The position numbers were made by a program, and so were the translations under genes. DNA of 62,121 bases from Nitrospira sp. (lineage in GTDB: Bacteria > Nitrospirota > Nitrospiria > Nitrospirales > Nitrospiraceae), in contig JARFPM010000009.1 in the NCBI GenBank assembly GCA_030444405.1, positions 1 through 62,121 on the forward strand, read 5' to 3'. The notes below the pieces were generated by a model that was not told where the DNA came from, searched no databases, and saw only the letters and a list, made by a program, of their open reading frames with translations. This document shows positions 6,102-11,576 of the stretch, piece after piece (the stretch's first letter is position 1; each line of letters begins with the position of its first letter).

Positions 6102-8033
6102 CTAGAGCCGTTCCCCGTACTTTCGGTAGTGTTGCTCCTTGGCGTCGGCGATCCACTTGTCCCGTTTAATGCGTTCCGGATCGGTCTCGAGCTTCTTGGC
6201 GATCTTCTCGATATCTTCCGGTTTCCAACGGGCAATTTGGATAAACGTGTAGGTGCCCATCTTATTCAGGGTCTGTGCAAAAACCGGCCCGATCCCGTGA
6301 ATCTTTTTGAGATCGTCTTTCTGACTGTCCTTACCCACCTTGGGTTGTCCTCCTTGGGAACTCAGTTCGGCTCTATTCGGACGAGCCTGAGGAGGCACCA
6401 CGGTTGCTGGAGCTGGTTTCGTCCGAATGGCCACGCGCAGTTCTCTGAGGCGCTTTTGCAGGCGATCGATGCGTTCATCTTTCTCTGAAATACTCCGGAC
6501 CTCCTCGACGAGAGCGTGACGCTCCGCTTGAAGCGCATGCAGCTCACGGTGGAGGCTCGCAATCTGCTCGTCTCGTTCATGCAAACGTTGCTCGCTGAGC
6601 AGATGTTGCGCGCGGAGTTGTTCCTGTGCGGCGCATTGTTCTTGGAGCTTCGCTGTTTCGACTTCGAGTTCTTGCACGGTGCGCGCGTGAGTTCTTTCCC
6701 ATTCTTTGAGTTCTGATTGCTTCTCGCGAAGGAGGTGGGTGACCGGCACAAGTTCTGCGATCCGCCGATCGCGCTCCGCGATGGCCTGTTCCAGCTGCTG
6801 AATCGCGCCGCGATGGGCGGCTTCCCGATCACTCAATTCGACCTCCAGCTGATGGATACGGCTCTGCACCGACTCGAACTTCTCCAGGCGCGCTCGGAGT
6901 TGGTCCCGATCGGCAAGGCCTTCGTTGAGTTGGGCAATATGCTCGCGCTGCACCCGGACTTCCTGTTCTATAACTTCGCGCGCTTGTTCGGCTGTACGAC
7001 AAGCCTGTTGGGCCGCGCGAAGTTCGTCAGCCTGGGCGGCCGCGACCACATCGACCTCGCCGATTCGACGGTCTCGTTCACCAATGGACCGTTCGAGCTG
7101 CTGGATCATGCCGCGATGGGCGGCTTCGCGATCACTCAGCTCGACTTCCAGTTGATGCACGCGATCTTGCACCGATTCCAGCCTTTCCATGCGGGCGCGG
7201 ACCTGGTCCCGATCGGCAAGGTCTTTGTTGAGTTGCGCGATATGGTCACGGAGGACGCGGATCTCTTCCTTCAAGACCTCGTGCGTGTGTTCCGCAGCTC
7301 GACAGGCCTGCTGAGCCCCGCGGAGTTCTTCCAGCTGGGCGGCAGCACTCGCATCGACCTCACTGAGCCGGCGGTCCCGCTCCGCGATGGTCTGTTCGAG
7401 CTGCTGGATCATGCCGCGATGGGCGGCTTCGCGATCACTCAGCTCGACTTCCAGTTGATGCACGCGATCTTGCACCGATTCCAGCCTTTCCATGCGGGCG
7501 CGGACCTGGTCCCGATCGGCAAGGTCTTCGGTGAGTTGGTTGATGTGGTCACGCAAGGCCTGCATTTCCTGCTCCATGACCTCGCGTGCTTGTTCCGCAG
7601 CTCGACAGGCCTGCTGAGCTCCGCGGAGTTCTTCCGATCGGGTAGCCGCGATCGATTCAAATTCACTAATCCGGTAGCGTGCCGCAGCTCCGTCAGCTTC
7701 CAAGTCCGTCAATCGCTTTGTCCGTAAGGCCAATTCTGATTCGAGGGCTTTCAGCCGTTCACCACGGGCGGTCAACTCTCGTTGGGCTGAGGAGTAGAGT
7801 GTCTCGGATGACATGATCTTCTGCTCGAGAATCCGCACCGACGAGGTCTTTGCTTTCAAATCACGAGATATCGCCTCCAGCGCCTGTTCTTTGGTTCGTA
7901 AGAGGTCGGCGAGATCCTCGTGTGGGTATTCGGTCGAATGCTTTGGGAGGCGCTGCAAGAACCAGCCGACCGCAACGCCAATACCTGCCGCGATGAGAAG
8001 GCATCCGACCATCTGGCTAATCAGTGTGATCAT
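6102..8033 (-). CDS. Membrane-anchored coiled-coil repeat protein with C-terminal helix-hairpin-helix domain (copy A)
   Basis: The 643-residue protein begins with one transmembrane helix (about residues 5-25, CLLIAAGIGVAVGWFL), so it is probably held in the inner membrane. A long coiled coil follows and includes two full and one partial copies of a 101-residue repeat (about 122-427), each with the LSDREAAHRG signature. The C-terminal 70 residues contain a DDLKKIHGIGPVFAQTL stretch, typical of helix-hairpin-helix domains annotated as flap-endonuclease-like or 50S L21-linked proteins. In such proteins the domain may bind nucleic acid, but no nuclease residues are visible. The gene is followed upstream, 14 bases away, by a BON/OmpA gene on the same strand, and the pair has been duplicated. 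A role linking the inner membrane to DNA or scaffolding is only a guess. Confidence 0.8.
   Translation of the reverse strand: MITLISQMVGCLLIAAGIGVAVGWFLQRLPKHSTEYPHEDLADLLRTKEQALEAISRDLKAKTSSVRILEQKIMSSETLYSSAQRELTARGERLKALESELALRTKRLTDLEADGAAARYRISEFESIAATRSEELRGAQQACRAAEQAREVMEQEMQALRDHINQLTEDLADRDQVRARMERLESVQDRVHQLEVELSDREAAHRGMIQQLEQTIAERDRRLSEVDASAAAQLEELRGAQQACRAAEHTHEVLKEEIRVLRDHIAQLNKDLADRDQVRARMERLESVQDRVHQLEVELSDREAAHRGMIQQLERSIGERDRRIGEVDVVAAAQADELRAAQQACRTAEQAREVIEQEVRVQREHIAQLNEGLADRDQLRARLEKFESVQSRIHQLEVELSDREAAHRGAIQQLEQAIAERDRRIAELVPVTHLLREKQSELKEWERTHARTVQELEVETAKLQEQCAAQEQLRAQHLLSEQRLHERDEQIASLHRELHALQAERHALVEEVRSISEKDERIDRLQKRLRELRVAIRTKPAPATVVPPQARPNRAELSSQGGQPKVGKDSQKDDLKKIHGIGPVFAQTLNKMGTYTFIQIARWKPEDIEKIAKKLETDPERIKRDKWIADAKEQHYRKYGERL
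6753..7670 (-). repeat. 303-base tandem repeats inside coiled-coil gene A
   Basis: The coding sequence contains three successive units with a 303-base period. For example, the CCGCGATGGGCGGCTTC stretch occurs at 7111 and again at 7414, with a diverged version near 6810. Each unit encodes 101 residues: a DRDQVRARMERLES helix, the LSDREAAHRG block, a RDRRI block, and a REVxxEE helix. The last unit is partial. Confidence 0.85.
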
Positions 8034-8047
8034 AAATTCTGTGGTCC

Positions 8048-8911
8048 TTACATGACTAGTTCGATTCGTTGATACTCCTCGAAGCTTGGCTGTGATTTTC
8101 CCTGAGAGAAGGGCTGTGGTGAACCGGTGCCGATTGTTGTAAAGGGGTTGGTGAGTCCATGACTGGTCAGGTACTGCTTGACCGTTTCGGCGCGATGACG
8201 GTTCAGTTGCAGGTTGTGCTCCGTGTTACCCACGGTCGTGGTATGGCTCGTGATTTCAATCGGTGCGTTGGGAGCTTGCCTGAGGAGTGTGATGATTTGA
8301 TTCAGTGCCACCTGTCCTTTGGTCGTGATCGTCGCACTGTTGGGCTCAAACTCGATCGAAGATTTCGCAAGGACTTGGTTCAGCGACAGCTGCAGTGCCG
8401 GGAGAGAAACCGCGATGGAAGAAGACGATGAGGTCGTCGGGGCCACCATCACACGGTCTTCGACGGTGAGCCCCGCCCGTACAGCCGGAGCGATCACCTG
8501 TAAGACATCGGCTTTCTCACGATGACCGGCAACCTGACCGGTCACGACCAACGAACGTCCATCGATGATGATGGAACCACGTTCCACCATCAACCCCAAG
8601 ATCGGCAAGAGTTGGGGAACCGTGTCCACCCATGGAGCCGTGATAGCGTCCCTATCAACGACAAGCTGGTCAATCACACGCATACCCGATTTTGTATAAA
8701 GCGCATGGGCCTGATCGAGAATGATGGCCTTACGGCGTTCGTTGGGCAACGAACCGCGGAGGACTAATTTACTCTGTTCAATGCTGGCGTGAAAGGTGGC
8801 GGGAGTTACAGCCGCGGCTCGTGGCGGTAAAGAGAGATGCCGTGGGATACACACCACGGCAAGAAGTATCAGCGCAATGATACCGCCGGTAAGAATCCTC
8901 GCACGACTCAT
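8048..8911 (-). CDS. BON-like/OmpA C-terminal domain envelope protein
   Basis: This 287-residue protein has an N-terminal signal anchor (about residues 7-24), a middle region resembling repeated BON-like halves (about 40-165, with LRGSLPNERRKAII and VVTGQVAGHREKADV), and an OmpA-like C-terminal domain (about 180-287). The OmpA part shows the typical EFEPNSATIT strand, NxHLQLNRHRAETVKQYL helix and a terminal IGTGSPQP stretch. OmpA-like domains bind peptidoglycan, so it probably sits in the periplasm tethered by its N-terminal helix. The architecture resembles the mycobacterial ArfA type. It lies 14 bases upstream of the coiled-coil gene and is probably co-transcribed with it. A nearly complete internal deletion has reduced the second copy of this gene to the stub at 11370-11576. 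Confidence 0.8.
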   Translation of the reverse strand: MSRARILTGGIIALILLAVVCIPRHLSLPPRAAAVTPATFHASIEQSKLVLRGSLPNERRKAIILDQAHALYTKSGMRVIDQLVVDRDAITAPWVDTVPQLLPILGLMVERGSIIIDGRSLVVTGQVAGHREKADVLQVIAPAVRAGLTVEDRVMVAPTTSSSSSIAVSLPALQLSLNQVLAKSSIEFEPNSATITTKGQVALNQIITLLRQAPNAPIEITSHTTTVGNTEHNLQLNRHRAETVKQYLTSHGLTNPFTTIGTGSPQPFSQGKSQPSFEEYQRIELVM

Positions 8912-9223: not shown

Positions 9224-11362
9224 TTATACTCGTTCCCCGTATTTTCGGTAGTGTTGCTTCTTGGCGTCGGCGATCCAATTCTGCCGTTTAATGCGATCAG
9301 GATCGGTCTCGAGTTTCTTGGCGATCTTCTCGATATCTTCAGGTTTCCAGCGAGCGATTTGGATAAACGTGCGGGTGCCCATCTTATGGAGAGTGTCGGC
9401 AAAGACCGGTCCGATCCCGCAGATCTTTTTGAGATCGTCCTCTTGAACGTTCTTGTCGGCTTTGGGCTGTCTGACTTGAACATTCGACCCAGCTCCGTTC
9501 TGGCCGGGCTGCTGAGGCGGTGCGGTTGCCGAAACGGGCGTCGCGCGAAGTGACGCCCGCAGTTCTTTGAGTCGCTTTTGCAGCCGATCGATTTGCTCAT
9601 CCTTCCCGGGAATACCTTGGACCGCATTCTGTAAAGCTTGACGTTCCGCGTGCAAGTCATGCAGCTCACGCTGGAGGTTTGCAATCTGTTCATCGCGCTT
9701 TTGCAGGCGTTGCTCGTCAAGCTCGTGTTGCGCGCGGAGTTGCTCCTGTGCCGCCCATTGTTCTTGTAGTTTCGCCGTCTCGGCTTCCAGCTCTTGCACG
9801 GTGCGTGCGTGAGTACTTTCCCATTCTTTGATCGTGGCATCCTTCTCGCGAAGGAGGTGGGTGACCGGTGCAAGCTCTTCGATTCGCCCGTCGCGCTCGG
9901 CGATGGTCTGTTCGAGCTGCTGGATCATGCCGCGATGGGCGGCTTCGCGATCACTCAGCTCAATCTCCAGCTGATGGACGCGGCCTTGCAGAGATTCCAG
10001 CTTCTTCACCTGGGCGCGGAGCCGATCCCGGTCGGCCAGGCCCTCATTGAGTTGCGCGATATGGTCGCGCAGGACCCGGATTTCTTCTTTCAGCACCTCA
10101 CGGGCCTGCTCAGCGGTGTGACAGGCCTGTTGGGCGGTGCGGAGTTCGTCGGTTTGGGTGGCTGTAACGGCATCGAACTCACCGATCCGTTGATCGCGGT
10201 CGGCGATGGTCTGTTCGAGCTGCTGGATCATGCCGCGATGGGCGGCTTCGCGATCACTCAGCTCAATCTCCAGCTGATGGACGCGATCTTGCGCCGATTC
10301 CAGTATTTCCATGCGGGCGCGGAGGTGGTCGCGGTCGGCGAGATCCTTGTTCAGTTGCGCGATATGCTCACGCAGGACCCGGATTTCTTCTTTCAGGACT
10401 TCACAGGACTGTTGGGCTCCGTGGAGTTCGTTTGCCTGGGCGGCCGCGACTATATCGAACTCACCGATACGCCGGTCTCGGTCGGCGAGGGCCTGTTCAA
10501 GCTGCTGAATTGAGCCGCGATGAGCGGTCTCCCGATCACTCAGCTCGACGTGTAGCTGATTAACGCGGACTTGCACGGACTCCAGCTGTTTCGCCTGGGC
10601 ACGCAGGTGGTCCCGGTCTGCGAGGTTTTCGTTGAGTTGGGCAATGTGGTCACGCAGGATCCGGATTTCCTCTTTCAGGACCTCACGGGCTTGCTCGGCA
10701 GTGTGAGAGGCCTGTTGGGCGGTGCGGAGTTCGTCGGTTTGGGTGGCCGCGACGGCATCAAATTCACGGATCCGTTGGTCACGTTCGGCAAGGGTCTGTT
10801 CGAACTGCTGAATCCTGCGGCGATGGGCGGCTTCGCGATCACTCAGCTCGACTTCCAGTTGATGCACGCGATCTTGTGCCGACTCCAGTCTCTCCATGCG
10901 GGATCGGACTTGATCCCGGTCGGCCAGGCCCTCATTAAGTTGGGCAATATGGTCCCGCAGGACCCGGATTTCCTCATTCAGGACCTCGCGGGTCTGCTGG
11001 GTCCCGCGAAGTTCATCCCCTTGGGCAGTGATGATCGAATTGAGCTCGCTGACTTGTTGACGTGCCGCGGCTCCTTCCGCTTCCAGGTTCGCCACTCGAT
11101 TCGACCGGACAGACAATTCTGCTTCGAGCGCCCTCAGCTGCTCGCCGCGGATGGTCAGTTCTCGTTGGGCTGAGGAGAACTGCGTTTCGGACGACATGAT
11201 CTTCTGTTCGAGAATCTGCATCGCTGCAGTCTTCACTTTCAAATCATGCGACGTGGTCTCCAGCGCCCGTTCCTTGGCCCGCAGCAGATTGACAAGCTCT
11301 TGATATTGTTGCTCAAGAGAATCCTTAGAGGGAGGCTGCAACCACCTGCTCATCTTGCTCAT
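9224..11362 (-). CDS. Coiled-coil repeat protein with helix-hairpin-helix domain, no membrane anchor (copy B)
   Basis: This 712-residue paralogue is closely similar to the 643-residue protein at 6102-8033 along its length. It keeps the LEQKIMSSET block near the start, the 101-residue repeats and the C-terminal DDLKKICGIGPVFADTL helix-hairpin-helix. It has three full repeat units and one partial unit (about residues 104-496), one of them shortened by seven residues. The first 25 residues of copy A, which form the transmembrane helix, are absent; the similarity begins at RWLQPPSK. Thus copy B is probably soluble, or is translated from an altered start after the deletion that also destroyed the adjacent OmpA gene. 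The reading frame is fully open, so it may still be expressed, but its upstream partner is broken. Confidence 0.75.
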   Translation of the reverse strand: MSKMSRWLQPPSKDSLEQQYQELVNLLRAKERALETTSHDLKVKTAAMQILEQKIMSSETQFSSAQRELTIRGEQLRALEAELSVRSNRVANLEAEGAAARQQVSELNSIITAQGDELRGTQQTREVLNEEIRVLRDHIAQLNEGLADRDQVRSRMERLESAQDRVHQLEVELSDREAAHRRRIQQFEQTLAERDQRIREFDAVAATQTDELRTAQQASHTAEQAREVLKEEIRILRDHIAQLNENLADRDHLRAQAKQLESVQVRVNQLHVELSDRETAHRGSIQQLEQALADRDRRIGEFDIVAAAQANELHGAQQSCEVLKEEIRVLREHIAQLNKDLADRDHLRARMEILESAQDRVHQLEIELSDREAAHRGMIQQLEQTIADRDQRIGEFDAVTATQTDELRTAQQACHTAEQAREVLKEEIRVLRDHIAQLNEGLADRDRLRAQVKKLESLQGRVHQLEIELSDREAAHRGMIQQLEQTIAERDGRIEELAPVTHLLREKDATIKEWESTHARTVQELEAETAKLQEQWAAQEQLRAQHELDEQRLQKRDEQIANLQRELHDLHAERQALQNAVQGIPGKDEQIDRLQKRLKELRASLRATPVSATAPPQQPGQNGAGSNVQVRQPKADKNVQEDDLKKICGIGPVFADTLHKMGTRTFIQIARWKPEDIEKIAKKLETDPDRIKRQNWIADAKKQHYRKYGERV
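9875..11050 (-). repeat. 303-base tandem repeats inside coiled-coil gene B
   Basis: Four units are recognisable with spacings of 101, 94 and 101 codons. The second unit lacks seven codons corresponding to HTAEQAR. The block LSDREAAHRG or a close variant occurs once per unit. The copy number differs from gene A (four against three), which fits slippage or recombination between units. Confidence 0.85.
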
Positions 11363-11369
11363 AGTTTCA

Positions 11370-11576
11370 ACAATCCTTGCATCAGCAATTCGATACGATG
11401 ATTTTGTTGAAGGCTTGGTTGATGTTTCTCCTGCGAAGGGAACATGTCGAACCAGAGCCGGTCACGGTCAACGGAGTCTTGAGTTCCTGGTGGAGGGAAA
11501 GATGATGTGGGATACACACCACGACGGGGGGCATCAACGCTACCATACTGCCCGTGATAATACCCGCACGCCTCAT
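11370..11576 (-). pseudogene. Remnant of a second BON/OmpA gene with large internal deletion
   Basis: The 5' end reads MRRAGIITGSMVALMP and VVCIPHHLSLH, matching the signal-anchor region of the intact protein at 8048-8911 (VVCIPRHLSL). After about 35 codons the sequence jumps to a region resembling the last 30 codons of that gene: compare the nucleotides at 11386-11450 with those at 8055-8115. The body of about 650 bases is missing and the join is out of frame. The product could be at most a short secreted peptide, so this is called a pseudogene. Its deletion also removed the anchor of the adjacent coiled-coil protein. Confidence 0.75.

Follow-up and report, generated by a model that had tools for sequence, protein, structure and literature searches.

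A candidate two-gene envelope module in Nitrospira: an ArfA-like OmpA protein and a membrane-anchored coiled coil with a helix-hairpin-helix end

The closest described counterpart of the genes reported here is the arfABC operon of Mycobacterium, in which the gene of the OmpA-type protein ArfA/OmpATb (Rv0899 of M. tuberculosis) is followed by genes for small transmembrane (TM) proteins. In OmpA of Acinetobacter (A. baumannii Ab169), D268, paired with R283, is needed for peptidoglycan association (PMC6572160). ZapG (YhcB/DUF1043) has been reported to couple the Z-ring with the synthesis of septal peptidoglycan (PMC8163987). Here, we analysed two adjacent genes in a 62,121-nucleotide stretch of Nitrospira sp. 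DNA (contig JARFPM010000009.1 of assembly GCA_030444405.1; the whole stretch is called the window below). They encode an ArfA-like protein, P0002, and a membrane-anchored coiled coil with a helix-hairpin-helix (HhH) domain, P0001. On balance, the two genes probably represent, in Nitrospiraceae, an envelope module of two genes that is widespread and consists of a wall anchor and a TM protein with an HhH docking arm.

Both open reading frames (ORFs) named in the initial annotation of this DNA are present, at 6102-8033 and 8048-8911. They lie on the minus strand, P0002 being first in the reading direction and P0001 starting 14 nucleotides beyond its end. Their features are the following:

8048-8911, minus strand: P0002, ArfA-like TM-BON-OmpA protein, 287 residues (ORF, translation, domain and fold matches)
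8849-8905, minus strand: P0002 N-terminal TM helix, residues 3-21, with the invariant Cys21 (VCIPRHL) and no lipobox
8432-8809, minus strand: P0002 BON-like domain, residues ~35-160, matching the Rv0899 B domain (2KGS) at Z 13.2
8051-8413, minus strand: P0002 OmpA-like domain, residues 167-287, with Thr225 for the peptidoglycan-contact Asp and Arg240 kept
6102-8033, minus strand: P0001, TM-coiled-coil-HhH protein, 643 residues, the membrane-anchored copy (ORF, translation, conserved adjacency)
7956-8012, minus strand: P0001 N-terminal TM helix, residues ~8-26, with a GxxxGW motif, Cys11 on the periplasmic side and basic residues after the helix (predicted N-out/C-in)
6753-7658, minus strand: three tandem coiled-coil repeats of P0001, 303 nucleotides (101 residues) each (repeat analysis, family D1)
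6105-6317, minus strand: P0001 C-terminal HhH domain, residues 573-643, of the COG3743/NuoE-extension type

P0001 opens with a single hydrophobic helix (MITLISQMVGCLLIAAGIGVAVGWFLQRLPK), followed by the coiled coil and by a 71-residue HhH domain at the C-terminus, which was modelled with AlphaFold2 (AF2) at a predicted local distance difference test (pLDDT) score of 91. The helix, the 101-residue repeats and this domain agree with its initial description as a membrane coiled coil with an HhH end. In loci L075, L080 and L082 the equivalent gene is found as two overlapping or adjacent frames, split inside the repeat region, with assembly error in the repeats, decay or frameshifting as candidate causes.

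A single hydrophobic helix also opens P0002 (MSRARILTGGIIALILLAVVCIPRHL) and is followed by the BON-like and then the OmpA domain. P0002 must not be taken for a lipoprotein, the residue preceding Cys21 being V, L, I or F and not G, A or S. The AF2 model (mean pLDDT 84) found M. tuberculosis Rv0899 as its best whole-length fold match (Foldseek E 3.3e-13), with the C domains matching at Z 12.6-15.5 in addition to the B domain listed above (structures 2L26, 2KGS and 2KGW). The sequence profile of the P0002 family matched 2L26 at E 5.9e-31 over positions 27-285, and the order of TM anchor, BON-like B domain and OmpA C domain is that of ArfA. The NCBIfam ArfA model NF051434 (N-domain score) gave 41.9 bits on P0002 against a cut-off of 81, and P0002 is therefore called ArfA-like only. 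Of the BON domain that had been claimed for this protein, the fold likeness to the Rv0899 B domain stands, while the Pfam BON model PF04972 has no match on P0002 or contig C39 and BON_like (PF21923) reached 15.1 bits against 24.1.

The OmpA-like model PF00691 was reached on P0002 (59.2 bits, curated cut-off 27.2), and its OmpA domain resembled OmpA/Pal C domains at Z 12-17 in the fold comparison. Arg residues precede the helix, which predicts an N-in anchor with the OmpA side outside. The initial annotation had called the protein peptidoglycan-binding. The OmpA domain and its predicted periplasmic location fit this claim, but the contact Asp is replaced: P0002 carries Thr225 where 21 of 24 orthologues have Asp, which leaves the Asp/Arg pair (D268/R283 equivalents) incomplete, with Arg240 kept at the same 15-residue spacing. 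Asn237 for Ser and Tyr280/Gln281 for Asn-Arg are further departures from near-invariant residues. Peptidoglycan binding would thus be a property of the OmpA partner as a family, and is doubtful for P0002 itself.

Among the 146 genomes searched, P0002 has orthologues over all or nearly all of its length in 31 further species of the genus, and two other genera of the family have them at 46-49%. Of 395 Nitrospirota genomes, 73 carry the HhH domain, and every one of these belongs to the same family. In the fetched regions the OmpA gene nearly always lies directly upstream of the TM-coiled-coil gene, with a short spacing or, often, a 4-nucleotide overlap. Some Nitrospira carry a second, divergent locus, encoding an OmpA protein of ~190 residues and a TM protein in which the HhH is present in one to three copies. 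The genome of the window has a second OmpA/TM-HhH locus of its own (L103 8958-10028, at the end of contig C111), in which the OmpA domain is deleted and the TM-HhH protein carries the N-terminal TM helix of the OmpA protein as an in-frame fusion.

Scanning named genomes, we also found the pair in Bacteroidota (Spirosoma, Rudanella and Fibrisoma), in Acidimicrobiia (Actinomycetota), in a Myxococcota metagenome-assembled genome (MAG), in Alphaproteobacteria (Hyphomonas, Sphingomonadales and Robiginitomaculum) and in Gammaproteobacteria and Burkholderiales MAGs; Rhizobium lusitanum carries it on a plasmid record. In draws from three further groups, the HhH was matched in 9 of 198 Actinomycetota, 33 of 198 Bacteroidota and 23 of 185 members of the class to which L161 belongs (L161 being a Gammaproteobacteria MAG, as judged by record title); in each group some of the matches have OmpA neighbours. 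An OmpA match in Paraburkholderia was rejected as a pair member, since it sits in a type VI secretion cluster. When an OmpA-domain gene ending at most 300 nucleotides upstream on the same strand was counted as adjacent, 86 of the 105 TM-HhH genes with enough upstream sequence had one directly upstream, a few of the counted loci duplicating one place; 12 of the remaining 19 are the third gene in OmpA-HhH-HhH triplets of Bacteroidota. Because there are only 12 OmpA-domain genes in the 3.46 Mb of the window's genome, chance adjacency would be well below 1%. Homologous pairs thus adjoin in several genera of the family and in other phyla, and the initial proposal that the two genes work as a linked module is backed by a gene pair conserved across Nitrospirota, Bacteroidota, Actinomycetota, Pseudomonadota and the Myxococcota MAG.

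In all 34 TM-HhH N-termini compared, Lys/Arg residues are more numerous on the C-terminal side of the helix than on its N-terminal side, which by the positive-inside rule predicts an N-out/C-in orientation, and the helices have the motif LLLAAxxGxxxGWxxxR in common. As the initial annotation supposed, the HhH domain is accordingly predicted to lie in the cytoplasm and not outside. It belongs there also because the same domain, which could be aligned across its hosts, is fused to NuoE, ribosomal S2 (L110), ribosomal L21 (L210), phasin PhaH, an AtpG-like protein (L197) and an ABC ATPase-like protein (L194), the last two being identified by N-terminal sequence only.

Two patterns of absence and retention indicate which parts of the module go together. 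In L089, and in extra copies at L129 (4638-6076) and L132 (6970-8396), the partner is without a detectable HhH and the OmpA-TM-coiled-coil pair stays; the extra copies encode an OmpA protein of 353-361 residues and a short TM-coiled-coil protein of 114-126 residues. L093-L096 have neither the OmpA gene nor the TM copy and keep only the soluble HhH protein. The OmpA protein therefore goes with the TM anchor and not with the HhH. Moreover, cysteines at the periplasmic face occur on both helices in 43 non-identical pairs, on neither in 25 and on one only in 17, some of the last being due to a cut-off OmpA N-terminus. Grouping the pairs into lineages by hand, we obtained a modest co-occurrence (Fisher one-sided p 0.017-0.037). 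These sequence patterns suggest a direct P0002-P0001 complex through the membrane, in which the paired cysteines possibly form a disulphide between the helices.

The same data bear on a rival explanation, namely that an ArfA-type stress or permeability protein and a separate membrane HhH protein are co-expressed from one operon and form no joint complex. Rv0899/OmpATb has been reported to be pore-forming and is tied to low-pH conditions and ammonia secretion (PMC6151718), and in mycobacterial-type loci small TM proteins in the ArfB/ArfC positions adjoin arfA, as this explanation would have it. We consider it unlikely nonetheless, as OmpA protein and TM anchor are lost or kept jointly, and the common TM motif and co-occurring cysteines argue for contact.

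The C-terminal HhH of P0001 matched NCBIfam models of the COG3743 type (NuoE/L21/S2/PhaH) across their C-terminal portion at E 1e-10 to 1e-15, with the host-protein part missing. Among PDB entries, the domain is nearest in sequence to the "Reaction center protein O chain" (8yy9 plus three others) and to the "NADH:ubiquinone oxidoreductase 41 kd complex I subunit" of 9wqv; the homologous C-terminal HhH of these Rhodobacteraceae proteins matched P0001 at E 3e-10. The HhH of 8yy9 and 9wqv was not among the 50 fold matches listed for the P0001 domain, possibly as it is unmodelled in those structures. Rhodobacteraceae loci (L196, L199, L180, L188 and others) encode two-TM HhH proteins, some beside NuoE-HhH genes, and the one in L196 is a homologue of the O chain of 8yy9. 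The P0001 domain matched no solved structure strongly; its best fold neighbours were the N-terminal domains of RadA/Rad51, the HhH of POLQ and the C-terminal domains of NusA (Z 6.6-7.8), NusA AR2 in complex with SuhB among them.

Some of these neighbours recall DNA-binding proteins, and the initial annotation had named cytoplasmic DNA as one thing to which the pair perhaps connects the wall. The pair would then be a wall-to-chromosome tether, whose HhH binds DNA non-specifically and fixes the nucleoid to the wall. The Nitrospira domain does have a canonical GIGP hairpin with Ala (GIGPVFAQTL), the two HhH domains in the window have net charges of +4 and +6, and its neighbours include HhH folds of RadA/Rad51 (N-terminal), POLQ and Y-family polymerases. 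The charge, however, is not conserved: the mean of +4.4 for Nitrospiraceae contrasts with one of -2.6 for proteins of other phyla that are OmpA-linked, in which the domain is mostly acidic and the charge falls to -7. The curated Pfam models of DNA-binding HhH domains (HHH_5, IMS_HHH and DNA_pol_lambd_f) gave 15-19 bits against cut-offs of 24-30 and were not reached. Moreover, the domain is fused to the cytosolic proteins named above, and its PDB sequence relatives are subunits of membrane complexes. From the non-conserved charge, the unreached DNA models and the PDB relatives, docking to protein is therefore favoured; the HhH partner is more likely a protein than DNA, with DNA binding possible in Nitrospira alone. 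The link to DNA was thus not upheld, and a chromosome tether has, in our estimate, a slim chance of being right.

Upstream of the pair in the reading direction lies a second copy of the unit:

9224-11362, minus strand: P0003, second coiled-coil-HhH protein, 712 residues, without TM helix; relatives start MSTLxRWLQ; an ancient soluble paralogue
11382-11576, minus strand: 64-codon remnant of a second gene for the OmpA partner, its frame lost past the TM helix (repeat families D4 and D5)

The unit was duplicated in tandem as a whole, with one boundary ~100 nucleotides ahead of the OmpA gene and the other where the HhH gene ends (DNA repeat families D1-D5). The shared duplication claimed initially is thus real at the DNA level, but in the upstream copy the OmpA gene is reduced to the 64-codon remnant and the coiled coil is without a TM helix. 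The OmpA remnants of relatives vary in frame and length from genome to genome, and a small "mini-OmpA" protein upstream of the soluble copy was ruled out on these grounds. The TM-less coiled-coil relatives keep the MSTLxRWLQ start, and their HhH is usually 77-92% identical to that of P0001. Because relatives show the same remnants and a conserved TM-less protein, the duplication must date far back in the genus, and the soluble protein with the HhH must be a product that has been maintained. On the other side of the pair, a functional tie to the downstream dnaE/accA was rejected, that neighbourhood being kept within the genus and not in all other genera. The window begins (1-705) with a cut-off ORF that has a lipoprotein-like start (LLSDVGCVSRRTYERVK); relatives retain this ORF near accA.

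The duplication and the altered OmpA domain could also mean that the locus is a decaying remnant, with the OmpA partner losing its function and only the HhH coiled coils still of importance. The Thr225, Asn237 and Tyr280/Gln281 substitutions in P0002, the second OmpA copy that is already gone and the complete absence of the OmpA/TM pair from some Nitrospira all fit this explanation. Against it, the P0002 ORF is intact and 64-71% identical to orthologues of the genus along its whole length, and Cys21 and the TM motif are retained, making decay improbable. The least likely explanation is a crescentin-like cytoplasmic coiled-coil cytoskeleton for cell shape with a secondary OmpA linkage, since the long 101-residue repeat coiled coils and the conserved soluble paralogue (400-1130 residues, persisting without OmpA in some genomes) are set against several partners of other phyla that have short or Pro/Ala-rich arms and keep the OmpA linkage, and the weak match of P0003 to the crescentin rod model Rod_CreS (PF19220; 17.4 bits against 100) is what any coiled coil would give.

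We therefore return to the two-gene envelope module. From the architecture, predicted topology, conservation of the pair and co-occurring cysteines, we infer a physical complex with a tethering role. The first gene would supply an ArfA/OmpATb-like protein, anchored N-in by its TM helix, with its BON-like domain in the periplasm and an OmpA-like domain to engage peptidoglycan. The second would supply an N-out/C-in protein whose TM helix bears the GxxxGW motif and is followed by a variable arm in the cytoplasm (here the repeat coiled coil) and by the C-terminal HhH docking domain. The two TM helices may pack together, in Nitrospira possibly with a Cys21-Cys11 disulphide at the periplasmic face. 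The wall-bound anchor would then keep a scaffold in the cytoplasm at fixed positions, and there the HhH may recruit protein partners, and P0003 could co-assemble with P0001 via the same coiled coil and HhH. Several points weigh against this reading. The 86/105 adjacency count used a TM filter built from OmpA-linked proteins, a mild bias; the cysteine test was small, made after looking and non-independent within lineages; Spirosoma pairs have the cysteine on the OmpA side only; the fold likeness of the HhH is weak, with no Foldseek match below E 0.1; and wall binding by P0002, which is missing the key Asp and several other near-invariant residues from its OmpA domain, is itself in question.

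Read in this way, two genes annotated as "hypothetical" or "OmpA family" in many phyla become one testable unit, with a predicted topology, a contact predicted through TM helices and paired cysteines, and a predicted docking domain. This reading also opens a new view of arfABC with its small membrane partners, and of the HhH extensions that complex I, ribosomal proteins and a reaction-centre subunit carry. A bolder version, speculative and rather unlikely as it stands, would see a trans-envelope linker of at least five phyla, ancestral to or a sister of mycobacterial ArfABC, in which an ArfA-like wall protein is disulphide-linked or helix-packed to an HhH anchor that organises HhH-tagged complexes (complex I, ATP synthase, ribosomes and storage granules) at wall-fixed sites.

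Compared with known systems, the pair is most like arfABC. P0002 and ArfA/OmpATb (Rv0899) have the same three parts, and the place directly downstream, taken in Mycobacterium by small TM proteins, is taken here by the TM-coiled-coil-HhH gene. Two clear actinobacterial arfA genes are followed downstream by a TM protein of 50 residues in the ArfB position and a longer one in the ArfC position; no HhH was visible in the proteins read at these positions, one of which is cut by the locus end. Of 343 N-terminal TM segments scored on the TM-HhH anchor model, theirs rank 74 and 81-83, just behind real TM-HhH proteins, which is suggestive of common descent. Only the TM segment is alike, P0001 adding a long cytoplasmic coiled coil. 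The arfA-arfB-arfC operon of the mycobacterial type looks like a reduced relative of the pair. Our search of the open-access literature, with most subscription journals outside it, found no description of the pair and turned up nothing of relevance on COG3743 or on the HhH of NuoE. The initial view of it as undescribed therefore holds for the pair as such and is tempered by the ArfA-like OmpA partner and this reduced relative.

The membrane HhH proteins of Rhodobacteraceae (8yy9, 9wqv; L196) are like P0001 in their homologous C-terminal HhH, but L196-type homologues have two TM helices and no adjoining OmpA gene. The COG3743-type H3TH extensions of NuoE, S2, L21 and PhaH also provide a C-terminal HhH, on hosts that are soluble, cytosolic and without an OmpA partner. 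ZapG and membrane-anchored coiled coils of the EzrA type resemble P0001 in having a short N-terminal TM helix and then a cytoplasmic part; unlike the pair, they have no HhH and no known OmpA partner, and the N-terminus of E. coli ZapG (an approximate query sequence) scored near background on the TM-anchor model. The pair is thus best regarded as a variant of the ArfA-type envelope operons, with a wall-linked docking function that we infer.

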